From positions 2,296,449-2,360,448 of the forward strand of contig CAXIPT010000001.1 of assembly GCA_964030475.1 (NCBI GenBank): a DNA stretch of 64,000 nt, given 5' to 3'. The stretch comes from Tethya wilhelma (Eukaryota; Porifera; Demospongiae; Tethyida; Tethyidae). Below the pieces are notes generated by a model. It saw only the letters and a list, made by a program, of their open reading frames with translations. It was not told where the DNA came from and ran no database searches. Position 1 is the first letter of the stretch. Every line of letters begins with the position of its first letter. Shown one piece after another: positions 7,754 through 34,030 of this stretch. The translations under genes were made by a program, and so were the position numbers.

Positions 7754-10700
7754 ATGTCATCACTGAAACAAAAGAATTCAAAGTATCATCCTGACAGAGC
7801 GTGCAGTGAGTGTGTCCTGTGTGGTAAGTCCAGTGTTGCTACCACATACTATTCACACTATGAAGCATGGGGTGAAAGAGAGAAAGAGTTTCTCCGGAAA
7901 CACTGTGACACAGAGCCTCTTCCAAGTAGTTGTATATGCATTTTGCATCTGAAGGAGGCACAACGGTCACATTCAGAACCAAGCTATATACCAAAATGGA
8001 AAAATAGCCAAGTAACATCAACAAAACAATGCTTATATCCTGGATGCACGCGTGATTCAAACCAACGATTGATTAGTCCTTCCTTTGCTCCACTTGCAAC
8101 CATTGAGGCTTTCCTAGAGATTGAATTTAACCGTGATCTTCCCTTTCTTTTGTGTGCCAGCCATTACTATCAAGCATATGAGGCTTTTCGCTCTAGTCGA
8201 ACAGCATGTGCTAGTTGTGGGGTTAAACCAAGACATGGAAAGTCTTTCAATAGACATTGTCCAGATATTGGTGTGATTAATCCAGTTCTGTACAGATCAA
8301 ATGATGGTGAATTACACAAGGATGATTATATATGCTTAGCATGTTATAAATCTCACACAGAAATAATTAATTCGATCCACAACCCTCCCAGTAGCAGTGA
8401 TGATTATTTAACTCATAACACTACTATATGGCAACACACACTTTCAGACAACGATACCAGCAAGGTGACAAAGTGTGTTTTACAAGTAGTATTGTTTGTT
8501 GCACAAGAATTCTTGCACCAGAGAGCGATTCTTCTACCGTACCTTTCACGCATGTTTTTAGAGGCATACAATCAGTCTGATGGATGCTTGCTGGAGTGTG
8601 ATGAAGGTACAATTAGATTTTCATCACGTTGGCTGCTTAAACAGTTGGTATTACATTTCCACACCCACCTAGAATACAAGTGTGTGCACAAAAAATTTGG
8701 TACCATACTGTTTAGACGAGGAGGGGAATTACTTACAAGTCTATCATGGGCTTTGGGAAGAGCTGATTCTGAGATGGAGCACAAGGAATCTCAATCATCA
8801 GGTAACCAGCCGTCTGAAGATGTTGATGCCATATTACACCATGCTGGGGACATTGTGAATGATTTAATTCACAAAGAGGTAGTCAAGCATAGAAGTATTG
8901 ACACAATTGAATGCATTAAGACATTTAACATCGATGAACACATTTCAAATACTGACAAGAGACTGTGGAATTTTGTACAGTTAATTACAAGATCATTGGA
9001 AGAAAGAGCCACCAAAACTTCGACAAATGCCCATACTAAAAACATGAGGCGCTTTATGATTCTCTGCAATCTAATTTTCTGTACAAATACACATGTGCCA
9101 ACACCAATGCACACTCTTTTAGCTGACACAGTTGAAATGTGTAATGGGTCTCGTGTACTTATCAAGATTTTTAACAAGTTAGGTATAGTGTCATCAGAGA
9201 CACATGACCGTTTTGTAACCTCAGTAGCTACTGCTCTTTGAAGCAAATCTGTGTGGGATGAATTACAAGACCACATATTTACAGTAGCTAGCGCTGACAA
9301 TTTTGACATGCTTCAAAGTCATTCAGCAGTGTACAGTGGAGACCAAAGTTGTAGCTACCATGGGACAACAGTCCAGTTAGTTCAACCAAATCCACAACTC
9401 ACAATGGATACTACAGCTAGCAGAGAGAGTACTCACACAGACAGTATCTTAGTGGATACAGCTAGCAGAGAGAGTACTCACACAAACAGTATCTTAGTGG
9501 ATACAGCTAGCAGAGAGAGTGACACAAACAGTATCTTGATGGATACAGCTAGCAGAGAGAGTGACACAAACAGTATCTTGATAGATACAGCTAGCAGCAT
9601 GTGCACAGACAGTATCTTAGTGGATACAGCTAGCAGAGAGAGTGACACAAACAGTATCTTAGTGGATACAGCTAGCAGAGAGAGTCACATGTGCACAGAC
9701 AGTATCTTGATGGATACAGCTAGCAGAGAGAGCACTCACACAGACAGTATCTTAGTGGATACAGCTAGCAGAGAGAGTGACACAAACAGTATCTTAGTGG
9801 ATACAGCTAGCAGAGAGAGTCACATGTGCACAGACAGTATCTTAGTGGATACAGCTAGCAGAGAGAGCACTCACACAGACAGTATCTTAGTGGATACAGC
9901 TAGCAGAGAGAGTACTCACACAGACAGTATCTTAGTGGATACAGCTAGCAGAGAGAGTGACACAAACAGTATCTTGATAGATACAGGTAGCAGAGAGAGT
10001 ACTCACACAGACAGTATTGCTACAGCTAGCAGTGACACTAATAAGAGTAACACAAAACGAAATTGTACTACATCTCCATCAAGATCTCCTCATAAACTTG
10101 GAAAGATTGGACCAAAGAGACCTAGGACAGTTCACCCAAGATCTTTGCAAGATCAGTTGCACGAATCAACTCAACAAAATTCTCGCACACCCCCCCTTAC
10201 CAGCAAAAATGCTGCGAGCATTGTATCTACGGTCACACAGCCACCATTGACAATTCAAGATTTCTTGGAAAATGAAACTGAATCTAGAGAACGAGAGTCT
10301 CTAGAGAGGAAGCTATATACTTATATGCTTTCAAAACAAGAAATACTTGATCAGACTGGATCCATACTCACAGAATTTAAAGCGAGATATGCACGATCAG
10401 AAGAGACAATTGAACCATCAAACATTTTCTACATGGAGCTTGTTGATGAAAATCCTGACTCTAGTGATACAATGAGGTATGTGTCTGAGCTACTCATGCA
10501 ATCATACCAAGGCTCGAAACAGGATGGCTATGTAGTTCTGATTGGTGATGGGAAGACGTATCAACATTTAATGGATGTGAAGAGGCTTTATGGAGCAGCA
10601 GTAGAAAAGCTACTTATATTCCCTGGAGATTGGCACACACTGTTCAATTTCCAGCCTGTGCTTATGAAAGTCTACTACCAGAGTGGCCTTAAAGAACTAG

Positions 10701-14967: not shown

Positions 14968-16433
14968 AAATTCTCATAAAATGGAGGATGTTTTAAGTGA
15001 ATAACATCATATGGCAAAATTAAAGTTTAGTAGCTATGCCTTCTTTTTGTTTTTCTTCTACAAGTAAAGATTACATAAAGCTTTTTATATGATGCAGCTT
15101 AGCAACAATCAAGCTAACTATACTCCATGTCTTGTTACTTGGTGAAGCTTTTGTAAAGAAAAAAAAGCCTAATGTACAGAAGGGTCGGTCTATACACTTT
15201 TTTCCAGCTAGCCAACAACAAAGCGATTCTACGCTTCACAACGATCCAAGTACAAATATTAGTCAAAACTCTGAACACAGTTTTAACAAACTCAGATCAT
15301 GACAAAAAATTTTTATACCCTGCCTTAACTACACTGAACAACAAACATTACCAGAGCATGTGGTTTGGATCAGTACATGTGAACTTCATTTCATCGCAGA
15401 GCAAGAATCAAGTGTAGAAACAGTTTTCCTAGACTTTTCATTTTTATGAAGATCTTAGATCTGTGTTTCCATATTTTAGCAAAACTGACATCTTATTGTG
15501 GAGTGAAGGAGTACTGTAACATTAGGTTGCTATTATCATGGAAGGAGATAAAAAGTGAGATAGTTTGAAGAATCTTCCTCTGTACAAGGATAATTCCAAA
15601 GCAGAGCTCAAAAAATTTGCCACTAGTTGAAGATACCCACAGCCTCTTCAGTAACAAAATGTAGTTGATAAATACAAACTGCAGAGACCTGATGCCTTCA
15701 ATCACAGGACCTTATTTTGGAAGAATAAATCTTTTACCTAGTACACTAAAGCAAATTAGCCAGCTTCAATCCTTCAAGCTATGAGAATTCTTCATTACTG
15801 TTAGTTGCCGGTACTAAACACTAATTAGTTCCTGCTTCTACAAGGAGAGAGAGCTGCAAAATTTGCTAGAAAGCAAAAGCAAGTACTAGATTTACTAAAT
15901 AGGATATGCAAATTGTTAACAATTGAACGAAGGAAACTCAGCATTGACCATGTATACTAAGACATACACAGGTGTTGAAGGCATATCACTTCATCCTTCC
16001 ACCTGCTGTTCAACCATGCAAGTGCATGGAGCTACTAGCAGACACAAATGAAATATGACACTGCAAAGGGAACAAAATAATAGCATGATGATATAGCACA
16101 CTATTATTATCACAGTAGATGATCTGAAGAAATAGCTTAATTGGGTACAAATTGGGAGACTCTGGTTGAAATCTTAGGTGACCCCGTGTTCTAGGTAACA
16201 AGCCCTAGTTGCTCCTATTCAATACAACTCTCCTATTTTATACAAGGCCAAAAAGTAATATATATTAGACCATTTTGAGAGATTGAGTGAATTATTTTTT
16301 TTCTAGCCACCTGAAACGTTTATGCATGCTTATTTTTTGTGATATTTGAGCCATTAATCTATGCACGGGGAAAATTCAAGAACAAATCTTTCCTCTATAA
16401 GATGCACACCACAACTTGTACACATCATACNGG
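14968..16433. other. Non-coding stretch between the two large elements
   Basis: AT-rich; short open stretches only, none with recognisable similarity. One undetermined base lies at 16431, just before the tandem array. Confidence 0.45.
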
Positions 16434-17660
16434 AACTGCATACATTTAGACACCTATATCTAGTGTACACATGTTACATCACTTCTCTGTTTGTTTTCTC
16501 AATGCAGAGCTCTTTTCTGGGTATGAGTTCATGTCTTCATGGAGTAGCATTGTAAGGAACCGAGTAAGGAACCGCATACATTTAGACACCTATATCTAAT
16601 GTACACATGTTACATTGCTTCTCTGTTTGTTCCCACATTGCAGAGCTCTTTTCTGGGTATGAGTTCATGTCTTCGTGGAGTACCATTGTAAGGAACTGAG
16701 TAAGGAACCACATACATTTAGACACCTATATCTAGTGTACACATGTTACATTGCTTCTCTGTTTGTTCCCTCAATGCAGAGCTCTTTTCTGGGTATGAAT
16801 TCATGTCTTTGTGAAGTAGCATTGTAAGGAACCGAGTAAGGAACCGCATACATCTAGACACCTATATCTAGTGTACACATGTTACGTTGCTTCTCTGTTT
16901 GTTCCCTCATTGCAGAGCTGTTTTCTGGGTATGAGTTCATGTCTTCGTGGAGTAGCATTGTAAGGAACCGAGTAAGGAACCATATACATTTAGACACCTA
17001 TATCTAGTGTACACATGTTTCATCACTTCTTTGTTTGTTCTCTCAATGCAGAGCTCTTTTCTGGGTATGAGTTCATGTCTTCGTGGAGTAGCATTGTAAG
17101 GAACCGAGTAAGGAACCACATACATTTACACACCTATATCTAGTGTACATGTATTTTATTCCTTGTCTGCTTGTTACTCCATACAATGCTACTCCATTAA
17201 GACATAAACTTAAACCTATAGAATAGAGCTCTGAATTGAGTGAACAAACAGTGAACCAATAAGATACACGTACATTAAATATAGGTGTGTAAATGCATGT
17301 GGTTCTTTACTTGGTTCTTTATAATGCTACTCCATGACGATATGAAATCAGGGAATAAACAGCAAAGAAATGTAACATGCCTGAGCTTATCTCTTTATTG
17401 GACAGCATCATAAGGAACTGAGTAAGGAACCACGTAGATTTACACATGTATATCCAGTGTACACATGTTACCTTTCTTTGCTGTACCTATAAGGAACCAA
17501 TCAACGAACCACATTCATTTACACCTCATTATCTAGTGTACACATGTTACATTGCTTCTATTTGTTCCCTCAATGCAGAGTTCTTTTCAGAGTATGAGTT
17601 TATGTGTTCATGGAGTAACATCATTAGGAACTGAGTAAGGAACTACATACATTTACACAC
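16434..17660. repeat. Left tandem array of ~136-bp repeats (KDZ element side)
   Basis: The unit runs from (aagga)accgcatacatttagac through cctatatctagtgtacacat, a gttcc(c/t)tcaatgcagagctc stretch and ttctgggtatgagttcatgt to agcattgtaaggaaccgagt. Five well-conserved units occupy about 16434-17140. Degenerate and partly reversed units follow to about 17660, and a further isolated fragment lies at 18135-18225. The same unit occurs in the opposite orientation at 31.6-34.0 kb. Confidence 0.9.
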
Positions 17661-18605
17661 GTATATCTGGTTGGGGCAAGCCTAAGTGAGCCCCAGATAG
17701 CGAGTAGTATGTCGGGAGCGTCTGTCTGTCTGTCATCGTTGGACTTTGTGTGTTCACGTAAGCTAAACTAATGATCAACCCCTACCATGTACCATGCATT
17801 ACTCACGCATGCGCATAAGTTTAGAGTGTGCACGTGTTTTAGAGACAATCGAGAAATCAGAAAGAGGCGCAGCTAGAGCAAAACACTTGACTTTTGAGAA
17901 ATGATCCAGCTGATTAGCTAGAGGTTGTGAGACTTAGACAGTTGAAACAATATAGATGCTAAGCATATCTTATAAGAGACAAGCACAGAAACAGTTTAAC
18001 AGCAGCACCCAACAGAAAAATAGGCAGAAAACCAGATGATCTATACCATTAGCATGTTCTGACAAATATTCTCCGTACACTCGCTGTCAACTCATGCAAA
18101 ACTGCACTCGCTCAGGCTCGTCCCACAATACCTTGCATTCTTCTATTTTACACATGTTACATTTATTTGCTGTTTGTTTCCTCATTGCAGAGCTGTTTTC
18201 TGGGTATGAGTTTGTCTTCATGAGAAAGATGGAACTTACAAAATTCTTCATTTCATGTGTTCAGGTTTCCAAAGTGGATTGTTCTAGTTTTACTACTTAA
18301 TGAAACCCAAAAAACTATCAGTTCTGTTCAGTAACACTTAAACTCATCATTGTTTGATTCTCTTTTTCTATAACATTGTTTGTTTTATGTATTATAAATT
18401 GTGTAATTGTATGTACTTTGGTTTGTGTGAATCAGTGTGGGTTTTTTGGTAGTAATAATTAACCACATTCTTGCCTGATAGGAAGTAATTGCATGATCAG
18501 CTGGTGAGCAGCTTGCAAGTTTGTCGCGGTCAAGTTGAAGATTTTCTTTCTGCTTTGTTATACGCTCCTGTGCCGATCCTTTCTTCTTTCTATTACTAAA
18601 CTATC
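17661..18605. other. 5' flank of the transposase gene
   Basis: No coding sequence seen. It holds one isolated degenerate copy of the 136-bp repeat (18135-18225: cacatgttacatttatttgc … ttctgggtatgag). This stretch probably includes the promoter of the + strand gene, but I see no specific element. Confidence 0.4.
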
Positions 18606-21600
18606 ATGAACAAAGAAACTGAACTCTCAGAAAAGGAAGAGCACGAGGGAGTGGCTGACTTTGTACAAGTACGTATAGTAGCCGTAGGATGATTTTATAG
18701 TGCTACTCAATTGCACACTATGTCCTCCATTTCAAGTGTATATACATGTACAATAATACAGTGTCAAGATCGGCATATTCAGAATCACTCTGAGCTCGAG
18801 ATACAAGAGTGTGAAAGCTCTCAGGATCCCCAGGTGCTCGACTTTCATAAGTAAAGTTATCACTTTATAAATCAAATTGCAACTTGATTTACAATCATGC
18901 TACAAGTTACTTGTGATTGACTAGTACTTGTGATTGACTAGGAATTAATATGTCTGAGCTTGCTACTCTAAGTACATGAGTGTGCAGGAGCCTCACAGCA
19001 CATATTGTCACAAACAACTGCCACTCTGGTACTAAGTTTGTTGTTCAATTTTAATTTTTAACATTATATGAATGGTCATTCTCTTCTTTTTTTTTGCTTC
19101 AGTCCAGTGAGAAAGGTCTTAGCAGAAAAGTCACAAATCTAGAGTTTGGCCCTCACTGTCATAGAAAGGTGTGTAGTTGATACTGTATATGTTTTAACTT
19201 GGACAATCTCATCCAGGACCTGATTGATCATCATTGTAATTTCAGAAACGTCCTTGTGAGTATGAAACAGAAAATGCCATTAAGAAAGCATGCCGGAAAG
19301 GATCAGACTGGCGCTACAAAATCAGTTCTGATTTGCCTCGAAAACGATTGGCAATGAATTATAGAAGAAATAATTCCAGTAGTACCAGTACTAGTGAAAC
19401 AGTAAAGTTGGTCAACAAGGTTGCTGTACAGACCAAAAATGAGGACATTAATACTAATGGTAACATTTTCTGTCACAGTGACAATGTTTGTTACGTATTA
19501 ATCCTTATACACCTTTGATACAATTGTTGTGATATTTGTTAGGTAACACCTCAGAAGACTTTCCTGTCGCAGATAGCTTCTCATCTGCAATAATGGAATC
19601 AAGTAATGTATGTGAAATAATTATTGTGGTGTATTGTAGCCTTGCACCCAAGCTCTAGCTCTCCTTTGACCTTGCACTAATGGTTAGTACAGGTCAAAGG
19701 AGAGAGCCTGGGTACAAGGCTAACTAGTGTATTGTCACTTCATAATTATGGCATGACCATACAATGTCATAATGACTATTATACATGCATATATGCTGTA
19801 ACTAATGTATAAACTGTGATTATGGTGAGTAAAATAATTAATGATGATGCTCATTATTTAAATTATGATACAAACTTGAATTGCCAGAATGCTGCTCAAA
19901 CTACAACTATTGCAAGTTCTGTCATCACATGTACACCTGTTGATGCTTACATTCATCAGCTGATGATTAACAAGGCCATCATCCCATGTGATCCTCAGTT
20001 CAAGTTGTTTGTTTTGCAAGAGCTTTCTGAAACCACCCATCTTTTAAAAGTAATTATTGTGCATACGTATATATGTGTGCATGTATGTGGTTCTTATCCT
20101 GCCATGGCATTGTGCTATACTATTTATTTTGCAGCCTCACTGCTACCAGTTTGTGTCTCGGAGTGGACGTCACTTTCATGATGATTTGAAATGCTATTGG
20201 ATATACTCCTGCACATGCAACCCACATAACACACGCTTCTTGGAGAGTTTGAGTTCACACATAAGCTGTAGTTTCTCTGATTTTAGTAAAGAATACCAAG
20301 AGTGTATTCACATCAAAGCAACTATTCACTTCACTAGTCACCTGGATGCAATCCACTGCTTGACTCCTAATAGTGATTTTGAAGGTTCTATACCTAAAGC
20401 TTTAGCTATGCAAGCATACACACATGCAATAGTAATAATTATATATAATCATGTACTCTTTTTGTAATTTGTACTATATAGAGCACTCGTATACTTCCGT
20501 GGCACTTGACAATCCAGTACAGGTTTGTTTAGATATGATTCATGCACTATTATACTTAAAACTTAATATTATACTCATTTACAGATGTTGGACACTGTAG
20601 CTTGTGTTGGAATGCTGGGCTCAGTTTGTGTATGTGCTCAAGGATCATATGGTGTTGTGTATGTATCCTCAAGTTTGGATATCACTTGTGCAACATGTCG
20701 GTTTGGGAAAACATCTTGCAAGCATGTAAACCACCTTGTAGCCATTATTAGTTGTGAACAACTCCAATCAGAGTTACCAGAGCCATTACAAAACTTTGCC
20801 AACCTACTACAACCAACAGCTGATCGTGTAAAGCTTAATTTAGCTACTTTAAAATATAGTAACAGGCGATACACCATCCCTTGTTATTCAGTGAAAACTA
20901 TCCCTTTCATCCTTCCATCACATTTGAATGTGGTTCTACTACAAGCACTGATTGAGAGATTTAAGATTAGCAATGATATTGCACATCTTATACCAGAGGA
21001 GACAACTATATGTGGAGACTGTGGACAAGTAAGATGGGAATTCCCTGTACTGGATTACAATTCCATGATTGTTACAAACAATCAGCTAATAAATGCCCAA
21101 GGTTAGCAACTTAGCCACAAACAGTTATATTATAATTTGCATGTGTTGTCTTCTCAAACATCTATAATTACAAGTATAGTAAAAATTTCATAAAAATTAA
21201 CAGTGTAGGAATGGGCAGTGCGGTAAAAAGTAAGGAAACAAGGCATGTCGCAATTTCGGCACATGACTACTTCATTTTCATTTTTGATTCCTCATACATC
21301 CTGTCATATGAAAATAAATATTGATATGATTCAAACAATGTTGTACATGCCTAGATAAAATAATGGTTGGAATTCATAGATCATGCATGCCAATCAGTAT
21401 GCTGCAGAGTGTGCCACCTTACGGTCGGATTACTGACAGGGAGTGCCGATGGATTAATTGAGGTGTGGAACTTAACTGTTAGCTAGCTAAGTGGGGCAAA
21501 GTATATAAGCAGGCAATCTAGGCAAAGTTGTTCCTCAATACTCTACTTGAGCATAAAAAAATGAAGTAGTCATGTGCCGAAATTGCGACATGCCTTGTTT

Positions 21601-22006
21601 CCTTACTTTTTACCGCACTGCCCATTCCTACACTGTTAATTTTTATGAAATTTTTACTATACTTGTTCATTCACTTTTTTCAACACTAAAGTGAGGAGAC
21701 TATATCAGGGACTTAGTAAGTCCTTACAAAAAGCTTGAGTAGCAGTACTATTAGGCTAATGCGCATGCGCATTAAATGCCACGTGGATAGATAACGACCT
21801 TTGACCTCTACCTACAAAAGATGGCTGCATTGAAGTGTATGAATTTATATACTAAGTTTTAAAGCTTTCTAGCTCTTGTTTTAACACATTTGGGCAGAAA
21901 GCGAGTGCAAAAGGCACTAGTCCAGATGAGAACAAATTGTTCTGTGTAGTCAAAACAAGCTCAACGTCTTTTGTTTTTCTGGAAATCGCTTTCAAGTAAG
22001 TCAGTT

Positions 22007-22037
<31 letters not shown>

Positions 22038-24423
22038 GAGAACAAAATTGCGTGGGTGTTGCTTCTAACTAGCGCTCGCTACGAGTGCTTATGAAAGCTT
22101 CTGTGAGTTTTAGGCCATGCAAGCGTTTGTTAATCTGTCTGAGAGAGCTTCTGAGAAAGTTTGAAGGTTTAACTTTGTCTTGCTAGATTTTTATGGTGAT
22201 AAACATTTTGTATTATGTCTATGGGACAGTCGGCCCATTCCTACTATACGTACTACCGTACGTATGATAGTATTCAAAAGAAGATGTTCCACACCTGAAT
22301 GCACTGGACAGCTATTGTATGATGGCCAAGATCAATGTCTTCTGAACATGAAGCAGCTTCTCTTCACCTATGAAGTATTGAGACAGTTTATGTATCATTT
22401 CTTGCTTGGAAGGTAATGCAAAAAGCAAGGCCATAACTGCATAACATGCAGTTACATAATTATTATACCTGCTTTTGCAAGATGACATTAAATTGCATGA
22501 TAAGTTTTTCCCATAATAAAATTATACAGGACAACTATATACACCGAGTACTGTGTTCTTTCCAAGACCTACAAAGATACAGGTTCCTCTCTCAGTAGCA
22601 CTGTACACTACAACCATTACCGTAGTGCTTGGTATGCATACTTGAGGCTGATGAAACCCAGCATTGATTTCGATGTTGGGTTCAGTTGTGAAGAGTGTGG
22701 AGCTTGTCCTTCTGTTGTTATCATGGATGGAACTTCTCTCTCATTTAGAAAGGATTTAGATTTTTGGAACACCAGCAGTAGGATCAAAATGGAAGCACAA
22801 AAAGCTGATGTAATTCCCAAAGGAAGGTTAGTCTCATTGGCACAGAAATGGTGACTCTCACTAGTCACTACTGAATAATATGCAGTGACTCATTAATAAT
22901 TATAATTATCTGCATGTATGTGGTATCACCATGGCCATGACATTGTAGTACAGGAGTCACTACAATAGAATGACATTGTATAGTGGTGGCACCATGTACA
23001 TGTTGCAATAATTTGACCGATAGCTCTTACTTATAGCTTTCAAGATCGAATCTTTATCAAGAATATTGATACAAGACGACTTCTGATGAAGTATTGCACA
23101 AAGGGCCTCACTCATACAGAGATGCTTCAACTTATTCGGCGTGTATCTGAGCACACACCTTGCCTCTTGTTGCTTCTGCAACACTTGGAAAAGCAGGTTC
23201 TCCCTGGGGCAGATTTATGTCAGTGCCCTCTTCCTTACAGAAGCTTTATTCAAAGTCTGTCATCAGATGCCCCAGTGTGTGCTCTAATTCCGCCCAATCA
23301 AGAGACTATTCAGTTAGTAGAGAAACTCTCTCAGTATGATATTTCCAAGGATCCTGAAGTATGTATTAATTCTGGCTATAATTTATATGTATGTTTGGTG
23401 TATTACTCAAGCATTGATAATATAACTCGTATTATTTTGCATGCAGGATATGGAGATATTGCAATCTAGTTCTCCAGTTCTTTTTGGGTTGCTTCTGGAT
23501 GTGAAAGACTATCCCCGCCAGGCAATATTTCCCATCCTAAAAGAATTAATTATAAAATCACTTGCCCCATTCAAAAATCAAGACTATCCTGCCGAAATCG
23601 TGTCTTTACCTGAAGAGAATGAAATTTGTTCACTATCTTACTTTCCTACACTACGTCGAGTAAGAGAAAGACGAAGTTATGAAGCTGACAAATCTTCTAG
23701 GGCAAAGATATGTACTAAGAAAAGCAGTGGACATCCTACATTATTGCCTGGTGTATTCACTCTGTTTTGTCAACACGGTATAACGATTATTATTATAGTA
23801 ACTGTTATTGATACTAAAACAATTATATCAGATATCTATTGATCTTTACATGCATGATTATAATTATGTAACATTCATTAAGAATCATTATACCTTATAG
23901 GAATCTGTTATGGTTTTAAAACAATGCGAGTACGTGAGTCACCGAATACTGCTTTTACAGTGCTTTTTGAGCATTTCAAAGCAGGTATATGGATATTGCA
24001 ATAATAGTCTTCTTTATTGTTAACTCTGGAAATGTTTTTCTCTAACTCAGCTCCAAAAACTGTCATCTATGACAACAGTTGTAATTTACATGACTACTGT
24101 CTCAACAGAGAAGCAAATTTCTTTAAGGATACCAAATTTGTGATTGATCGGTTCCATTGGCCAAATCACACTGGTATAGAAACCTGTTACATGTTACATG
24201 CATGCAAATAATTGTTATTATTGCTATATATACAGGGTGCAGCCAAGCGTACAACATAAGTTTGTATCCTCAGTACGCTACCATCAATACCCAGACAGTG
24301 GAACAGGCAAATTCTGCTTTGGGCAGAATTAAGTCATCCGTTAGTTATATGAATGCACCTAATTTTATGATGCACTGCAAGTTTTTTTTATGGCACAGAA
24401 ACATTTTGAAAAAGCAACAATAA
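18606..24423 (+). CDS. KDZ transposase with SWIM-like zinc finger
   Basis: Sixteen exons join in phase to 978 codons: 18606-18668, 18762-18833, 19103-19168, 19246-19459, 19543-19607, 19888-20049, 20135-20384, 20482-20522, 20585-21101, 22271-22412, 22530-22826, 23037-23358, 23447-23777, 23901-23984, 24051-24173, 24236-24423. The N-terminal half has the Cys/His cluster ITCATCRFGKTSCKHVNHL (SWIM-like, slightly off CxC…CxH) and a CGDCG pair. The C-terminal half is the KDZ catalytic core: CEECGACPSVVIMDGTSLSF (Asp codon about 22725), GICYGFKTMRVRESPNTAF, VIYDNSCNLHDYCLNR (Asp 24071), FVIDRFHWPNH and NTQTVEQANSALGRIKSS (Glu 24301). All candidate D/D/E residues are present and no stop interrupts the frame, so the gene could be active. 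A repeat insertion fills the intron 21102-22270. An alternative acceptor at 22185-22186 would add 28 repeat-derived codons in frame. Confidence 0.85.
19636..19724. repeat. Short foldback (CCAGGCT family)
   Basis: The segment gccttgcacccaagctctag and its imperfect complement (agagagcctgggtacaaggc) flank a ~40-bp loop in an intron of the transposase gene. Closely related hairpins lie at 32393-32456 and 49052-49133. Confidence 0.6.
21171..21665. repeat. MITE with ~105-bp near-perfect inverted repeats, in transposase intron
   Basis: The arm starting caagtatagtaaaaatttca (21171-21282) is matched by its reverse complement at about 21555-21665. Both arms contain GTAGGAATGGGCAGTGCGG, AAGGCATGTCGCAATTTCGG and CATGACTACTTCAT. 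The spacer is ~270 bp of non-coding DNA. Single related arms occur at 48186-48295 and next to the gap at 56070-56129. Confidence 0.85.
21666..22268. repeat. Interspersed repeat, copy A
   Basis: This segment is homologous, in inverted orientation, to 55486-56085. Shared stretches include atgcgcatgcgcatta, ttttgttgtgtc-like AT blocks, a GTAAG/CTTAC run, and cattttgtattatgtctatg with gggacag, ending in the palindromic tacgtactaccgtacgta. It lies in the intron between transposase exons and supplies the alternative acceptor at 22185-22186. Confidence 0.75.
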
Positions 24424-24512: not shown

Positions 24513-25946
24513 CTAAGAGTTGAGCCATGGGTGAGCTTCAGTTGCCTCTTTGCTTGTGTCATTATAATCATAAAGCAGCTCGTCTCCAACATTGATGTCT
24601 CTTTTTGCAAAGAAGAGTATTTTGGGGGGACCATCAATGCCAAACACCTTTGGTAATATGTTGGCATTCTTTTTAGAATGGTTTATCATTCTCCCCACTT
24701 CTACATCCTGGCAGTGAGTTGCATCAATACTATGATTAGTGCATGCATGAGGTCATAGACAATAAAACAAAGTGATGCGTATATACAATCTACAGTATGC
24801 TCTGTATACCATAGCTTCTTTCCAGAGAAAGAGAAGAAGTACATGTAGCCCTTGTGGGTCTTGTCCTCAGCTGAGCTATTCATGAGATAATCTTGCTCTC
24901 GTCTAAGAGCTACATTATGGCTAATCAATTCACCACTGTACTCACAAATGAAGTCACCAGTGGTGAATTTACTCTTGGTAACGACTCCCCTTCCCTTCTC
25001 AGGAATCTCCACAACCTGTATGTAAAACAAATTTATCATCAAAATTAATTATGCATGATTATGATATGTATTACATACCTCGAGTATTTCAGATGAGTTT
25101 GTGTTAGCCAGCTTTTGCTTAATGCCCTCAGCCCATCTCCTCTGCAATGATAACAATCAACCACGACAATATTATGATCATCTCACTAAAACAAATACAT
25201 GCAGTCAGGAAGACCATACACAAACCTTTAGCTCACTTTCAGAGGCACGTTTTGTGTGTTTGGTAGAGTTTCTTTTCATTTATTTGTGTGCATCAAAGTA
25301 TATATTAATTTTGGATAGTATGTGAATCAGTTTTGTTTATGACTATAATTATACCTCAAATAGCACTCCATTAGCAACAAACGTCGCAATTGAGTGCAAT
25401 CTGTATCAAAATCAGTGAGACAAATTTTGTCCTCAAAGAGAGCATCTGGTGCATGCTGCAGAGATAATAAATAATTCTATACAATATCAAAGAATAACTT
25501 TCAGTATAATACTTTGATTATAGTTCTCATGTTTAGCATCAGGTGTATTCCACAGTCAAAACCATTGGTCTGTTGAGGGACCTACCAAAATTAATGTCAA
25601 TTGCAAAAAGAAAAAGCAATTGATGTTAATGTAGTTATGATGTTATACAGTACTGTTTATACGATTATTTCACCTACATTATAAGCCATGGAGTTAAGTG
25701 TGATCTGTTTCAAATTGTCAAAACACCTAAGTAACAGCTGGATCTTAGAAACAGCCTCAAAGCTATAGGGCATTAATTGAGTTGGTGATCCAGAATCCAG
25801 TATGAATGCACTATGTACAAATAAAAGTTGATAACCAATGGCAATGTGCAATGTATTATGCATTTAGCTTACATCTTATACTTGATGCATATGCATACAA
25901 GAATCCAATGCCAGACACCACTGCATTTGAGTGCATGTAATTTTAG

Positions 25947-25986
<40 letters not shown>

Positions 25987-26194
25987 NNNNNNNNNNNNNN
26001 NNNNNNNNNNNNNNNNNNNNNNNNNNNNNNNNNNNNNNNNNNNNNNNNNNNNNNNNNNNNNNNNNNNNNNNNNNNNNNNNNNNNNNNNNNNNNNNNNNNN
26101 NNNNNNNNNNNNNNNNNNNNNNNNNNNNNNNNNNNNNNNNNNNNNNNNNNNNNNNNNNNNNNNNNNNNNNNNNNNNNNNNNNNNNNNNNNNNNN

Positions 26195-26281
<87 letters not shown>

Positions 26282-29200
26282 CAGTCATGCACACATTGAT
26301 GAAGAAAGCAATGACAATGTTTTTTCATCCTAGATTGCCTTACATTGCACGACAGGGAAAAACAAGAAGTGGTGCTGAGACATTCAATGGGCCACATGCT
26401 GCAGTAAACTTTTGTTTGAACAGTTCACTGTTACTGCACCCTGCAAGGGCTTGAAAGCCCAAAGTCCTTGCAATATAAATGTCTGGCACTGGTTGTTGTG
26501 GGGGCAAGATGGTCCTGTAATAAAATTACAGGAATATATATGGCAGAGTATGACTCAGTACCATGCACTTACTTCACAAAAAAATCTATAACTGCATCTG
26601 ACACTCCATTACCAGGATATAGTGTCTGGATGTCTGACACAAAAAGAATGCATCTGTCTCGGTTCTTGTTGCAATCAACAACCCTGTAAAATTAATAGCA
26701 AAGCAGAATGATTCTAGTCCTGATCAAATCTATTTTACATGCACATCAGCTACATGAAGTCATCTTCCAATTGAACCCGCTGGCAACAGTAGAACTTGTT
26801 TTTCTTGTTGTAATGGTGATGTGCTATTCCAGTGCAATGACAATGAAGCCAGAGGTTGCACTGATCACACATCACCATTGAATCGCTTGTGGAGCTCTGT
26901 TTAATGACTTGATCTTTGCAGAAGAAGCAACAATTATATGCAATTGCTGCTTCAAGAAATGCTCCTTTGTTGTCACAAAAAGAAACAGTGTTGACTTCTG
27001 CATGAATGTGTGTCGTATAATTATGTAGATGTGTGTGAACTTCAATACATGACATGCATGCATATCATGACTTCAATCATGTCTAAACTTACCACTGGTA
27101 GGAATTAATGGAATGATGTGATTCATTACACTAGCTTCATGCGAAGATCTTGTCCACATGATATGTAGTGTGCCATTATAGCTTTCTGAACACCCACAAG
27201 GAAATAATGTGGTGTCATAGCCATCCCGTGGAAACTCAGTATGCTGCTTGATAATATGATTGGTGGCACCTGCTACAAACCATACTTGGAGAAGTCCTGT
27301 GCACAAAGGTATAAGAACATTTTAAATTGTTGTTATTAAAAATAATATCAATTTATGCCTGAATATGAGTCCAACTTGGCTGTTGCTCTTATTTCACATT
27401 CAAGGCAATACTTGAGGACATCTTTACAGCTACCATGGAGAGGTCTGTCTGAAAAGATCTCATTACTTGAAGTGACAGTCGACAGTAGCTGAACTGCATT
27501 GTCTAATGTTTTTATATCTGTACATAGCTATAGGATTCAGTAGAAAAGTATTTGTGCATACTTAAAAAAAGTTTATAATAATTATTATAGTATATACAAG
27601 CTACAATTTTAAATTATATCAAGTAAAACGCTTACTGTTTCCAGATAGTGTTCTTTGTGTAATATGGCATAATGCAGTGCTGCAAAACGCAATCCATTGC
27701 CATGTGATTGCTGTCCAAACAAGCTTACACTCACTGATGTGAATAGGCAGTTTCCATCAAGAGAAGAAAAACAAGGAGAAAAGCTATCAGGAATGAATGA
27801 AGTCAACATCTGTTTTCTCCTACATTATGCATTGTACAGCTTCAGTCAAAATCAATATTGTACACATGCAGTCTGTATGCATGTGCTGTACGTTGTATTG
27901 TGTACCTCCAGTCAATGAGAGATGGTGAGAGGCTTTGTGTTGTTATTCGTTGGTCACTGCATGTAGGTAGGAATCCTAAGTCAACTCTTTCTTTAGATTC
28001 TATCACTCTGCTTGTAAATGATTCTATATCAGGTGCACTGCTACACCATCTGAGAGCCTCCTCTACAGTGATCATACTAGTATGACTGCTGTCTTCAGTG
28101 GTCACAGTAGAAGAAGCTGTAATAAAATAAATTGGGTCAGAACTGAAGATGAGTAATTAGTCATAATAATAAATCTGTAAATACCATTTGAAATGCCATT
28201 AATAGTATTAACTTGGGTCTCATGATCACTAGATGAGTCTTCTCCTGATTCTGCTTGATCTTCACCACTATGAATGTACAAAGTGACTGACACCGTATAA
28301 AAATACATGAATCCACACAAATTATAATATATTATTCTCTTACATTATGACATAGTTATCTGGGCATTTTTCAATAAATGCAGTCAATACCACTCGCATC
28401 TCTTCTGCTGTCATACGCTTTTGTCCAGCTGAAAATCATCAGACTGCATTGCTTATCTTCACGTATCTTAGTTACTTATACAATTAAAATTCAATACATT
28501 TTGGGTGATTTGGTCGTCTAAAAGTTACCCGATCAACTGGAAACCACTCAGGGCAATTGGCATCAATGTAGAAGTTTCTCCTTGCTGGGGCACGTATGCA
28601 TGCATGTACATATTATAATGGTCCAGGATGCTTATTAAGTTAGAATTCAAGATTTATTAACATCAAACCTGAAGGGTTTAAAATTCTAGGAATAATCTTG
28701 GCAAGGACATCATTCCTGTAATTTTCTGGGTCCTTGTATGGCAGCTCTATTGGTTCAGCTAATTCTGCTTGTTTCACTATTAGTAGATATGAAATAATAG
28801 TATAATAACTCAAAAAAAAAACAAAGAAAAAACCAAAAAGCAGCTGATGCAAGGTGTTAAGTATTAACATAGCCAATCATCACTTACAGGAATGCTTAGG
28901 GGCGTCTTCAAACATTTGCATCCCTCTCCTCATTGCAATGTTCTTGAACTCCTCGACAACAACATCACGTTCAGTGAATGGTCTCATGTGCTCAGGTCCT
29001 GAAAACTTATATCAGTCAAATAAGGACATCAGTCGCACAATCATATTACTGTACCTTCCCACACAATTTCGTGAGCACCCTTTGTGTTCTTCCAGTAAAA
29101 GAAACAAAATGATGGCTCACATGGTGCCGTTTTTTCAATCCATTTTGCAAACTGGGTATAATTGTGTCAAGGATACAAAGACATGATAACGCTGATGATG

Positions 29201-30086
29201 TAAATTAAGATCTATAGCTAATTTTAATATACTTTTGATCTAATTCGAGAATAGAAGCGAGAGTTGATGCTTCTAATTTTCTCCATCTGGCTCTAGAAAG
29301 AGGGTATACAGTTATTTATCATAGTGTACAATCATTACACTATTCACCTTTGAAATAAGTGTTACAGTATCACTCTGAAACTTTTTTGAACAACCAGCAT
29401 CATCTTCTGGGAGATCATCATTAGATGCAAATTGCTTCCTCTTACATCCAATTGTTAGCTTCTGCTTCATCAGTATAAAAGTTAACAATGCATTACAAAA
29501 AAGGTTAGCTAAAATTAGCACCTTTTGATCCTGAGAGTCACTAGTCTGGGGTTGCTGAACATCATTTTGTTGGGGCAAGTTAGAATGCGTAGATTGATGA
29601 GACTCATGAGACTGCGGCACTGGTACAGGTTCCATGCATTCCTAGTCATGGATCACTCGACAATAACAATTTAGCTACAAATTAAAAAAAAGCACCTGTA
29701 GATCCTGATCATGAGAGTCTTCAGTAGACTCTTGTAGAAGGGATGCACATGAGTCAGAGGTGCTATGCTGATGATAAATGAAACTTCACAGTGAGTACAT
29801 AGCTAACAATCTGTAAACTAATCATCTCAGTTGCACCTGGTCACATAAATCTTTATTTTGTAGCTCTATTTCAGGTGACTCAGGGCGTGTATGATCCTGA
29901 CACTGCACACATGATTGTAAAGGAGGACTGTACAGTGCATTACAATTTTAAATCACGCATCTTAGAGCTTACTGGTACAATGTCAGCCCCTCCCTCGACA
30001 TCATCCTCGCTTTCTGAGGGTTCGAGAACAACGCGTGCTCTCAGCTTTTGAATTCGTTGCAAAGCTGATCCTTTCTTTTTTCCCAT
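24513..30086 (-). CDS. Transposon accessory protein: OTU-like, PHD-like, Ulp1-type protease and KMT5A-like SET domain
   Basis: A chain of about 28 exons on the minus strand, starting at MGKKKGSALQRIQ (30086), can be read in phase to a stop at 24513, about 1,100 residues. Order: a low-complexity Ser/Gln/Asp N-terminus (to about 29.35 kb); a conserved region with FAKWIEKTAPCEPSF, HMRPFTERDVVVEEF and CPEWFPVDRV; and an OTU/vertnin-like domain with SSLDGNCLFTSVS (Cys codon 27747). Next comes a PHD-like finger (FFCKDQ … MVMCDQCNLWLHCHC), whose last Cys pair looks degenerate. The Ulp1/SENP-type (C48) protease carries HWILV (His 25908), FILDS (Asp 25795) and PQQTNGFDCGIH (Gln and Cys 25552). Last is a SET domain closest to KMT5A: GRGVVTKSKFTTGDFICEYS, GRMINHSKK, ELLYDYNDTSKEATEAHPWL. 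The PHD-Ulp1 junction (donor about 26754) and the Ulp1-SET junction (acceptor about 25251) are inferred from phase; the PHD exon could instead end at the TAG at 26750. One intron uses a GC donor (about 27377). An intron holds a CA microsatellite and a gap. Confidence 0.72.
25951..26279. repeat. (CA)n microsatellite interrupted by a 208-bp assembly gap
   Basis: The CA run is broken by undetermined bases (25987-26194). It lies inside an intron of the minus-strand accessory gene, between exons encoding PLLVFPCRA and the catalytic HWILV segment. All frames through it give meaningless TH or VC repeats. Confidence 0.95.
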
Positions 30087-30152
30087 GTCAATTGAACCAA
30101 GCCACTGAGTTGCGTTGCACGAACCGTTTACTACAAGCTGCCAGCTGATCAT

Positions 30153-31630
30153 TCATACCATAATTAATTATTGTGGCGTGCAACTCGTGTAATAATTAGT
30201 AGCGCAGCATAATACACTTCCTGTCTGGGATGCGCATATTATTATAATTATTCAGCATGCACAAATTGTCATGATTATAAACAGATTATAAAAATATTCT
30301 AGAGAGCACAATATAAAGTTAACTTAGTTTATAGAAGTAATTTTATACATGTGAGTTTTTAAGTTGGGCTCTTTTGCAAAAAAAGCTTGAAGCGTGATGT
30401 ACATAAGCTGGAGAGTAGAGAAATGGATACTATAATAATTATTCACAAAAATATAAAGAATGTATGGTATAACACGAATATACCCCTTTAAGGCTTTCTG
30501 CAGTACTACAATCATAGTAAACTGCCAATTGTATTGTAGCTAGAATTGTACAATAATTCATGCCAATTGCATGTCTCTGTCCAATTATACCCAGTTTGCA
30601 AATCAATGGATTGAAAAAAAACAGCACCATGTGAACCATTATCCATAATTATTGTAACAATTGATGTCAAAACTAAGAACTGCACATGCATTGCTAACAA
30701 CATCATTTTGAAGGGCAATCTTGTATTGAAATACAGCAGCAATACAGGACAGTGGCAGCTTCTTTAAAGTTTTGCAGTGAACTGTGGAGACAGTGAACTA
30801 ACATAATTATGTTTGAATACCTAATGTAATTCTTTACTCTGCATCATAGTCTTTGTAGGGTGGTTGGTACTGCTGCTTCAACACTATGGGCTAGCGAATT
30901 TCGATAGTTGCTGAGTTGACCACAAAAGATACCTAATCATACAAAATGCACTATCAGTGCACTTGAAAAGCAACCATTATTTGCTTTTCGTACATTAGCC
31001 ACTATTTTTTTGCCCTTCAAATTATGACGAAATTGCAAATTGTCTATAACTCCAAATTTAGGGCCACAAAACTGTCGTGGAAAGCCTATTTTGGTGGTTA
31101 GGAGTAATTTTCGGGAATCACAACTTTGATTATAACAAAATAGATTTCTAAATTTTCATGGAGATAAAAATATTTTTCTCAACAATGCAACTTAGGATCT
31201 ACACAGCAGTGTGCAAGATTAAAGAAAACCAGTGAATAGAGTATTCAAATAGGTGTGCCTAAGTTATCTGGTTACATATCTATGGGAAGGAACATATGCA
31301 ACCAATTGCACTTGAGGCATAACTTGGACTGTACTGCAAACCAATTGTTAAGAGACCACAAAGTTTTCTCAGTACCAAGTAATCATAACCACATTCCCTA
31401 TAGAGTCTTAGTATACATAGTCTGCACCAGGTTGCCCACAAGACTACAGTGTTACCAAGATTAAAATTATGTGGTGCCACAAACAAAATATTATCTCACA
31501 ACAGTGAAATGATGGCTTACTCAAATTCAGGGAGGAAAAATGAAAACACACCCTCTTACCAGATAATAAGAACACACAATGCAACAATAACAGCATGTGA
31601 ACACTTAAAAAAAGAGTATAAAATTTAATG
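30153..31630. other. Spacer 5' of the accessory gene, with an inverted exon remnant
   Basis: AT-rich DNA, probably holding the promoter of the minus-strand gene. Apart from the exon remnant near 30.58-30.66 kb no coding similarity is recognised. Confidence 0.4.
30578..30660 (+). pseudogene. Inverted, decayed copy of an accessory-gene exon
   Basis: Read on +, the sequence attatacccagtttgcaaat then tggattgaaaaaaaacagca ccatgtgaaccat parallels, in opposite orientation, the exon near 29.06-29.16 kb (attatacccag|TTTGCAAAATGG … GCACCATGTGAGCC). It includes the acceptor. Frame is lost (an extra codon and length change in the A-run), so this is a remnant of a second copy of the accessory gene or a local inverted duplication. 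Confidence 0.6.
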
Positions 31631-31996
31631 TGTGTGGTTACCTTGCTTATTATGATACCGTCTTAATAAAGACACAAGCTCACAACAAGACAAAAGGTCT
31701 GCAATGAGGGAACAAACAGCAAAGAAATGTAAACAGATATAGATATGTCAATGAATTTGGTTCCTTACTCGGTTCCCCAATACTGAAACAAAATGCTAAG
31801 TCTTTGGACTAAGAGAGTCACCATACATAACAACAAGACACTTTTTCGAGTAAGTTTATGACAGAATGTACCTGCATCTTTGTTTTGCATGATTAGTTGA
31901 TTGAACCGTATCTCACTCTAAATAGTGCATTACTAGCATGCTGCTAGCTAGGAAGTGACATTTAGGTATTAGTTATTGCACAAGCATGAGTGCCAC

Positions 31997-32068
31997 ATGC
32001 CAGATATTGGCACAGTTGTGACATATGGCCCGAGGGTTTTACGTCACAACTGTGCCAATATCTGGCGC
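31997..32068. repeat. Near-perfect hairpin
   Basis: ccagatattggcacagttgt followed by gac is repeated as its reverse complement after a ~20-bp loop (gtcacaactgtgccaatatc). A third partial copy (gatattggcacagtttgcca) lies near 32158. It is a small foldback between the isolated repeat unit and the main right array. Confidence 0.8.
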
Positions 32069-32392
32069 TGGCATGGGGTCACGAGTGCGTGTGCACTAAC
32101 TGCATTAGCAAGACTACAGTGTTCACTCAAGCGTGAAGATAATGGCATGGAGTGGTCTGATATTGGCACAGTTTGCCACCTACGCAGTGTGCCATATGCA
32201 ATATAGTGGCACAGTTTTCTCTTTGATCTCAAGTGTCAAAATGCAACAAATACTAAATAGAAGCTAGCAAAAATGCTATAGCAGGGCACTAACAAAAAGT
32301 ACTAGTTATGTTTCTTTGCTGTTAAACTCGAGCCAAAAAAATCTAGATCAGCACATGGATTGTCATCGATTTTGCCCACACTCATTTATTTG

Positions 32393-32456
32393 GGCTTGTA
32401 CCCAAGCTCTTCCCTTTGACTTTTCACTCACAGAAAGGAAGGGGAAAGCCTGGGAT
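32393..32456. repeat. Short foldback (CCAGGCT family)
   Basis: gggcttgtacccaagctctt is mirrored by aagcctgggatctcac-type sequence across a short loop containing two GGAAGGG-like stems. Related to the hairpins at 19.6 and 49.1 kb. Confidence 0.45.
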
Positions 32457-34030
32457 CTCACGTCACAAACGTGAACCTCAAGTCTATAGTTCCTTGCAAT
32501 GCTGTTACATGAACACAAAAACTCATACCCAGAAAAAAGCTCTGCTTTGAGAAAACAAACAGAGAAGTAACGTAACATGTGTACACTAGATATAGGTGTG
32601 TAAATGCATGTAGTTTCTTACTTGGTTACTTACAATGCTAGCTGTGTCATGAAGAGATAAAATCATACCTAAAAAAAGAGCTCTGCAATGAGGAAAAACA
32701 GAGAGAAGCAATGTAACAGCAGTGCATTAGATATTGGGGTGTACATGTATATGTTTCCTTACTCTGTTCCTTATAATGCTACTCCACGAAGACATGAATT
32801 CATACCCAGAAAAGAGCTCTGCAATGAGGGAACAAACAGAGAAGTGATGTAACATGTGTACACTAGATATAGGTGCCTAAATGTATGCGGTTCCTTACTC
32901 GGTTCCTTACAGTGCTACTCCACGAAGACGTGAACTCATACCCAGAAAAGAGCTCTGCAATGAGGGAACAAACAGAGAAGTGATGTAACATGTGTACACT
33001 AGATATAGGTGCCTAAATGTATGCGGTTCCTTACTCGGTTCCTTACAGTGTTACTCCACGAAGACATGAACTCATACCCAGAAAAGAGCTCTGCATTGAG
33101 GGAACAAAAAAAAAGCAATGTAACATGTGTATACTAGATATAGGTGTCTAAATGTATGTGGTTCCTTACTCGGTTCCTTACAATGCTACTCCACGAAGAC
33201 ATGAACTCATACCCAGAAAAGAGCTCTGCATTGAGGGAACAAACAGAGAAGTGATGTAACATGTGTACACTAGATATAGGTGTCTAAATGTATGCAGTTC
33301 CTTACTCGGTTCCTTACAGTGCTACTCCATGAAGACATGAACTCATACCCAGAAAAGAGCTCTGCAATGAGGGAACAAACAGAGAAGTGATGTAACATGT
33401 GTACACTAGATATAGGTGTCTAAATGTATGTGGTTCCTTACTCGGTTCCTTAAAATGCTGCTACATGAACACATAAATTCATACTAAGAAAAGAGCTCTG
33501 CAGTGAGGGAACAAACAGAGAAGCAATAAAACACGTGTACACTAGATATAGGAGTGTAAATGTATGTGGTTCCCGATTTAGTTCCTTATGCTGCTGTTAC
33601 ATGAAGACACAAACACACATTTAGAAAAAGAGCCCTGCAATAAGCTAGGGAACATATCTGTAAAAAAAAGTAATGTTTGTCTGCTAACGTATTTGGTCGC
33701 TTATAATACTGTAGGGAAATAGATGATTCAAGTGGTTACTAGAGGAATCTTACACATATTAATGTATTTATATGAATTGCATGCATGCTGCATTGCTTCT
33801 TTGTGTGATATCTCATTGTATAGCTCTTTTGAGTGCGAGTTATATTTTTTGGTAAAGATCATCAATGTAACTTGTTGTGGTTTTCTATGGTTCTTCGTAA
33901 AATAGAGACCAGAAATGAGCTTTGTAATGAGCAAACACCCAGGCAGCAATCACAGGAGCAAGGAAACACGTGTGTATCAGAAATAGGTACTCTTAAATAC
34001 ATGTGGTTCCTTACTCGGTTCCTTTGACAT

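Follow-up and report, generated by a model that had tools for sequence, protein, structure and literature searches.

A predicted accessory protein joining OTU-like, PHD-like, Ulp1 and KMT5A-type SET modules beside a putative KDZ-superfamily transposase in the sponge Tethya wilhelma

The accessory gene and its fused modules

Our analysis of a 64,000-nucleotide stretch of the Tethya wilhelma genome (GCA_964030475.1, contig CAXIPT010000001.1, positions 2,296,449 to 2,360,448 of the forward strand; hereafter the window, whose own numbering is used throughout) revealed two intact genes lying tail to tail with 89 bases between their stops. One encodes a transposase that appears to belong to the Kyakuja-Dileera-Zisupton (KDZ) superfamily, the other, here called the accessory gene, a predicted protein that combines OTU-like, PHD-like, Ulp1 and KMT5A-type SET modules (Table 1). 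A first reading of the letters alone, without database searches (the sequence-only reading), had proposed this fusion on a single minus-strand exon chain, and the chain held when it was rebuilt from the raw sequence: between an ATG at 30086 and a stop that ends at 24513 lie 26 exons which, spliced in phase, encode 1072 amino acids (aa) with no internal stop. Of the 25 introns 24 are GT-AG and one, after exon 14, is GC-AG. The gene could instead start at an upstream in-frame ATG at 30152. Two junctions that had been considered doubtful were partly revised: the donor at 26754 was kept, its acceptor is 26683 rather than 26689, and 25355/25271 replaces 25366/25251.

Pfam profiles run on the spliced protein recovered SET with 68.8 bits (cut-off 22.4) and Peptidase_C48 (C48) with 29.4 bits (cut-off 20.7), while the OTU and PHD matches stayed under their cut-offs. 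The SET domain found KMT5A/SETD8 in 14 of the 15 best sequences of the PDB (best chain 5teg, E 6.7e-33), and among the best 60 of 111 matches those outside the KMT5A chains and 4ldg scored no higher than 48.8 bits. Judged by sequence, the domain is of the KMT5A type, with KMT5A as its closest core and with the GRxINHS, YDY and C-terminal HPWL motifs; the four residues that we take to be the active-site tyrosines of KMT5A are all kept. A predicted Ulp1/SENP catalytic set of His, Asp, Gln and Cys is present in the C48 domain, for which yeast Ulp1 (1euv) was the best PDB match with the whole sequence (E 1.5e-5); searched as two separate stretches, this part reached only E 0.95 and 0.33. For the OTU-like part, a profile built from three copies of the gene (see below) matched OTUD1 best in the PDB (E 3e-7, about 48 positions). 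Along the protein the motifs lie at aa 442-445 (DGNC), 597-602 (NHIIPL), 785-787 (WHW), 798-801 (ILDS), 842-850 (QQTNGFDCG), 1013-1019 (GRMINHS), 1052-1056 (LLYDY) and 1067-1070 (HPWL), and DGNC and NHIIPL supply the Asp, Cys and His of the OTU triad. Additional to the modules named by the sequence-only reading is a conserved N-terminal domain at aa 141-322, characterized by the motifs W..T.P..PSF, GP[ED][HY]M, I[IL]PRI[ML]NP and FY...P.WFP in all three copies; it gave no Pfam match over cut-off, and the best E in a PDB profile search was 0.26.

Diverged copies in the same genome

The source genome (124.6 Mb; contigs are labelled C1, C2, C5 and so on) was searched for copies. The tail-to-tail arrangement of the window is repeated at C2:20266500-20276400, with a relative of the transposase and an accessory gene, and a further pair lies at C5:4934300-4946278. 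The accessory proteins of both were recovered with a purpose-written spliced-alignment program using a protein-only query, and each was scanned separately with Pfam, which yielded the same four families as in the window plus weaker others. They keep the order of the window protein, namely N-terminal domain, OTU, PHD, Ulp1 and SET, and the three proteins are 34.5-34.8% identical to each other over aa 141-930, outside the SET domain. SET scored 71.6 bits in C5 and 75.7 bits in C2, and C48 scored 52.0 bits in C2 and 18.0 bits, under the cut-off, in C5. Invariant in all three are the Asp, Cys and His of OTU, the His, Asp, Gln and Cys of Ulp1, and the GRxINHS and YDY of SET; motifs kept at about 35% amino acid identity suggest long purifying selection. 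A fourth copy (C7:3449228-3451980, minus strand, with stops), a relative of the C5 copy, retains the succession OTU, PHD, Ulp1, SET; three weak matches to one domain each (on C46, C11 and C6) were left out of this check. The pairing of SET and Ulp1, which the sequence-only reading had proposed to look for in other copies of the element, is thus present on C2, C5 and C7. In the C2 copy (L082) the stretch running from PHD into Ulp1 is duplicated in tandem, 1.2 kb apart.

Intron positions are also shared. Of 20 window introns compared (those after aa 165, out of 25), 13 recur in C2 and 12 in C5, where a match means a position within 1.4 residues, irrespective of phase; random positions gave 1.35 and 1.20 matches, and 0 of 2000 trials reached the observed numbers. 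The intron between PHD and Ulp1 (donor 26754, aa 688) recurs in C5, and junction 25355/25271 in neither copy. A chance chain of exons was rejected on the basis of the two diverged copies and the common intron positions, and a chance joining of neighbouring genes would be very unlikely. We also rejected a host KMT5A gene fused through an assembly error, since a separate KMT5A-like locus exists at C7:197494-198368, and a viral gene, since a scan of viral contigs with two short patterns turned up no relative, none of its 24 pattern matches being confirmed.

Identity to human KMT5A is 42-50% for the five SET domains of the elements. In a tree of 10 SET domains six of the seven inner branches stayed open and only the C5 copy and that at C7:3449228-3451980 grouped together, so that the tree does not resolve their descent. 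Searches of protein databases, limited in length and to the candidates with most words in common, returned no full-length relative of the accessory protein; the matches have only the SET domain in common with it, with the exception of P0013, whose match spans 19% of the query and which carries an OTU-like stretch. Another protein, P0002 from a frog (Ranitomeya variabilis, 993 aa), combines KRAB with a C-terminal SET domain like that of the accessory protein and has a very weak phage-integrase SAM-like match between them; it is perhaps encoded by another mobile element with a KMT5A-type SET.

The partner transposase

The sequence-only reading had called the convergent neighbour a KDZ transposase. 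The arrangement stands, whereas the window transposase itself gave no Pfam match over any cut-off and none to KDZ (PF18758) up to E 1. The relative on C2, with 42.5% identity over 774 aa, matches Pfam KDZ with 33.0 bits (cut-off 26.6), and the C5 relative, 42.3% identical to the window transposase, has no KDZ match. The database search gave three relatives: P0004 (31% identity, E 1.3e-70) and P0006, both with a Pfam KDZ match (39.6 and 40.9 bits), and P0005, for which no Pfam domain is listed. Because C2, P0004 and P0006 match KDZ, the window transposase can be placed in this superfamily by homology to members, not by a direct profile match. CxC4 scored 24.7 bits in P0004 and 26.3 bits in P0006, both under the cut-off of 26.9, and no Pfam match to an upstream cysteine cluster (CxC) was found in the window, C2 or C5 transposases. 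A tree of six transposases had no well-supported branch. A Ginger or Helitron element was rejected, since the window transposase had no such match, integrase included, up to E 1 and has KDZ relatives.

Table 1. Features of the candidate element in the window (positions within the 64,000 nucleotides; a dot marks features without strand).
Feature	Position	Strand	Description and basis
Accessory gene, whole	24513..30086	-	26 exons, 1072 aa: N-terminal domain, OTU-like, PHD-like, Ulp1, KMT5A-type SET; spliced model, Pfam, diverged copies, common introns
Exons 1-4, acidic N-terminus	29348..30086	-	aa 1-140 (D/E 25, K/R 15); spliced model
Exons 5-10, conserved N-terminal domain	28344..29292	-	kept in three copies
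Exons 13-15, OTU-like peptidase	27093..27819	-	DGNC and NHIIPL; Pfam OTU 20.6 bits; three-copy profile to OTUD1
Exon 16, PHD-like finger	26754..26997	-	Pfam PHD 20.3 bits
Exons 17-22, Ulp1/SENP-type cysteine peptidase	25355..26683	-	predicted His/Asp/Gln/Cys; Pfam C48 29.4 bits; PDB 1euv
Exons 25-26, KMT5A-type SET methyltransferase domain	24513..25015	-	Pfam SET 68.8 bits; KMT5A chain 5teg
Run of N with TG repeat at its flanks	25987..26194	.	intron between accessory exons 18 and 19; sequence inspection
Transposase	18606..24423	+	16 exons, 978 aa, intact; spliced model; relatives with Pfam KDZ; 42.5% identity to C2 transposase
Fold-back insertion	21170..21666	.	109-bp perfect inverted repeats; intron between transposase exons 9 and 10; sequence inspection
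Left 136-bp repeat array	16432..18222	+	tandem 16432-17149, degenerate copies to about 18222; single N at 16431
Right 136-bp repeat copies, inverted	31666..33684	-	lone copy 31666-31776, array 32489-33684

Association of the accessory gene with the transposase

In a genome census, in which matches within 15 kb were merged and counts are lower bounds because only the best candidates were scored, we identified at least 30 loci related to the transposase and at least 15 related to the accessory gene. For eight of the 15 accessory loci, window included, a transposase locus is found no more than 15 kb away, against 0.14 pairs expected under uniform placement. Some of these eight are short or weak matches, and two of them lie on either side of a single transposase remnant on C1, near 27.1 Mb. 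An earlier, narrower census had given 7 of 11 accessory loci and 6 of 30 transposase loci as paired.

Left out of the accessory count were C7:197494-198368, taken as a host gene, SET loci of other kinds, and C2:835997 and C12:865319, which are KMT5A-like of another look (8/17 if counted). The last two (L019 and L020), whose open frames are 222 and 209 aa long, encode near-alike KMT5A-like SET domains with the motif CLDAT..LGRLMNHA, and perhaps belong with the genes with N-terminal SET described from Hydractinia and sea urchin. None of 16 loci with an OTU-like match only (17 rows before merging, outside the accessory count) is near a transposase locus. These matches are short, alike and situated in longer open frames (e.g. 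C34:73057, C74:30953, C56:68155), and probably represent another repeat family with an OTU gene. At C17:600008-603642 a Pfam KDZ match stands beside two Ulp1 (C48) matches, and another KDZ lineage in the same genome may also carry Ulp1.

Repeat arrays and element ends

Both genes are enclosed by inverted arrays of a 136-bp repeat, the right array being up to 93% identical to the left over 717 bases. Diverged copies of the repeat occur elsewhere (69-82% over at least 140 bases), some as inverted pairs; such arrays were seen at C1:16.55 Mb, C9:3.68 Mb, C58, C80 and C7:0.56 Mb, the one on C80 at a distance of about 4 kb from a KDZ match. In the window the arrays probably represent the subterminal regions of an element of about 17 kb. 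Concerning terminal inverted repeats, the long inverted arrays stand on both sides and the outermost ends were not found. Loci with the 136-bp repeat (L084-L087) showed no clean ends and no target-site duplication, which for Zisupton is 8 bp (PMC12730594).

Exon 1 of the accessory gene resembles exon 1 of the transposase in inverted orientation (30023-29970 against 18621-18671, score 53; best of 300 base shuffles 27), and both genes may have been given one common duplicated leader at the element ends. This similarity was seen in the window only, and the stretch between the C5 genes has no such repeat. The run of N between accessory exons 18 and 19, in the intron of junction 26344/25920, could hide something. 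By eye, a short inverted look-alike of accessory exon 6 was noticed upstream of the gene at 30590-30651; part of exon 6 alone also matches C1:9551631 with 76%. The end sequence of the fold-back insertion in the transposase likewise flanks the 136-bp array on C9 (L085, by eye). Outside the element, 9412-10017 is a tandem array of 45/135-bp units.

Possible function of the accessory protein

We observed the fusion itself, its co-conservation with the transposase and its catalytic motifs. Tentatively, and with a probability of about 0.4, we interpret the accessory gene as belonging to a large DNA transposon of the KDZ superfamily, present in few copies, of which it would be the second gene; its one fused protein would protect the element against its own silencing. 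If expression, nuclear location, activity and substrates are as predicted, PHD would be the reader, OTU the ubiquitin remover, Ulp1 the SUMO remover and the KMT5A-type SET domain the writer of such a protein. The PHD finger and the conserved N-terminal domain would keep it on the chromatin of the element, where Ulp1 would take SUMO off silencing factors and OTU would take ubiquitin off histones or the transposase. SET would monomethylate H4K20, upon which chromatin would open, the transposase gene be transcribed and the element ends remain accessible. This anti-silencing role is suggested by analogy: H4K20me1 opens chromatin (PMC8379281), incoming herpesvirus genomes are kept accessible by SETD8, inhibition of which raises H3K9me3 (PMC12724366), Argonaute-guided silencing is promoted by SUMO (PMC8131101), and the TET/JBP genes carried by fungal KDZ and other transposons have been read as a means of escape from silencing (PMC12730594).

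Several observations weigh against this interpretation. PHD (20.3 bits, cut-off 24.0) and OTU (20.6 bits, cut-off 23.3) are under their Pfam cut-offs in the window copy; PHD scores 20.8 bits in C5 and 20.9 bits in C2, and OTU is under the cut-off in C2 (19.5 bits) and over it in C5 (23.7 bits). The SET tyrosine of the YMYFF stretch is replaced by Phe in the C2 and C5 copies, and the C5 copy is without the HPWL end. An accessory gene or remnant lies within 15 kb of only 7 of the 30 transposase loci and is therefore not obligatory, nor is the arrangement fixed, since the C5 pair is head to head and a remnant on C11 has both pieces on one strand. Recent mobility of the window element is not supported: there is no near-identical second copy, as outside the window the best transposase and accessory matches are short pieces of at most 76%, and no target-site duplication was found at the window element, whose left outer end abuts the N at 16431. 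Furthermore, H4K20me1 can also lead to repressive H4K20me3 (PMC8379281).

Alternatively, the gene might be carried by the transposon in the service of transposition or repair, with H4K20 methylation and the removal of ubiquitin and SUMO steering repair or replication factors at sites of excision and insertion. We consider this doubtful. The Ulp1 and OTU modules of Ginger1 have been proposed to activate DNA repair factors (PMC2836005), and a review is devoted to SETD8 in DNA damage repair (PMC8897848), but nothing in the anatomy of the protein decides between this role and anti-silencing. It is unlikely that transposase and accessory gene are a domesticated pair, now host genes under selection in an immobile element. 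In favour of this, both genes are intact while no near-identical copy exists, and the closest relative found for the window family, at C11:2.634 Mb, is a broken remnant. Against it, further diverged pairs, in part broken remnants, occur elsewhere in the genome, and the inverted arrays still enclose both genes. An action on the host or on competing elements, as a trans repressor or general chromatin modifier that, for instance, silences rivals via H4K20me1 and then H4K20me3, appears quite improbable: H4K20me1 also serves as an intermediate on the way to H4K20me3 and compaction (PMC8379281), but there is no evidence for an action beyond the element, and a self-carried repressor would be without obvious benefit to it. 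That two or more separate genes were chained by mistake, one of them for example ending at the TAG at 26750, is highly improbable in spite of that stop just beyond donor 26754, the N run in one intron and the lack of junction 25355/25271 in C2 and C5, because the module order is the same in the C2, C5 and C7 copies, C5 has its intron at the same position between PHD and Ulp1 and most compared introns are common.

Relation to known systems and implications

The sequence-only reading knew of no description of this fusion. This applies to the four modules together, for which we also found none among the papers listed in searches of a literature that excludes most subscription papers and with them the original KDZ papers, but single modules in transposons have already been published. 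What appears to be new is the fusion of four modules beside a KDZ transposase. The sequence-only reading gave Ulp1-like genes as known from Zisupton-type elements; none of the papers covered contains both words. Fungal KDZ elements with TET/JBP resemble the window element in that the same transposase superfamily carries a chromatin or DNA-modification enzyme (PMC12730594); theirs is a separate 5-methylcytosine dioxygenase gene, whereas in the window two peptidases and a reader are fused with a domain of the histone-methyltransferase type. Ginger1 transposases have OTU or Ulp1, in one family Ulp1 and PHD, at their C-terminus, but they are of the Gypsy-integrase type, the modules lie within the transposase itself and no SET is named in the available part of the source (PMC2836005). 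Helentrons (the proto-Helentron of Phytophthora and animal Helentrons) are rolling-circle elements with SET genes, compared with Clr4, or OTU genes; unlike the element described here they are not KDZ, the genes are separate and the SET was compared with an H3 enzyme, not with KMT5A (PMC4067079). HarbingerS and MuDR of Phytophthora are DNA transposons that acquired a SET methyltransferase, but belong to other superfamilies, and the accessible text mentions no fusion with OTU, PHD or Ulp1 (PMC12730594).

The best match of the accessory SET domain, down to the C-terminal HPWL, is KMT5A (SETD8, SET8), and we know of no KMT5A with an OTU, PHD or Ulp1 module. Numerous diverged SET genes of the KMT5A type are reported from Hydractinia (65), Hydra (24) and sea urchin (61), and the longer of these genes have further domains (PMC10368294). 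They differ from the accessory gene in that SET is mostly N-terminal, and in the portion of that source available they are not described as transposon genes.

That the four modules have stayed fused, next to a KDZ transposase and despite deep divergence, suggests that the element benefits from the combination. Should the accessory protein open the chromatin of its element, it would give direct access to the ways in which animal transposons may counteract SUMO-dependent silencing. In a wider and more speculative reading, which we regard as doubtful, an animal KDZ lineage with a one-polypeptide chromatin kit would open its own chromatin against SUMO-dependent, small-RNA-guided silencing, and the numerous KMT5A-like genes of hydrozoans and sea urchins would go back to repeated uptake of KMT5A by transposons. 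The finding also offers a testable transposon origin for the KMT5A-like expansions of Hydractinia, Hydra and sea urchin (PMC10368294).

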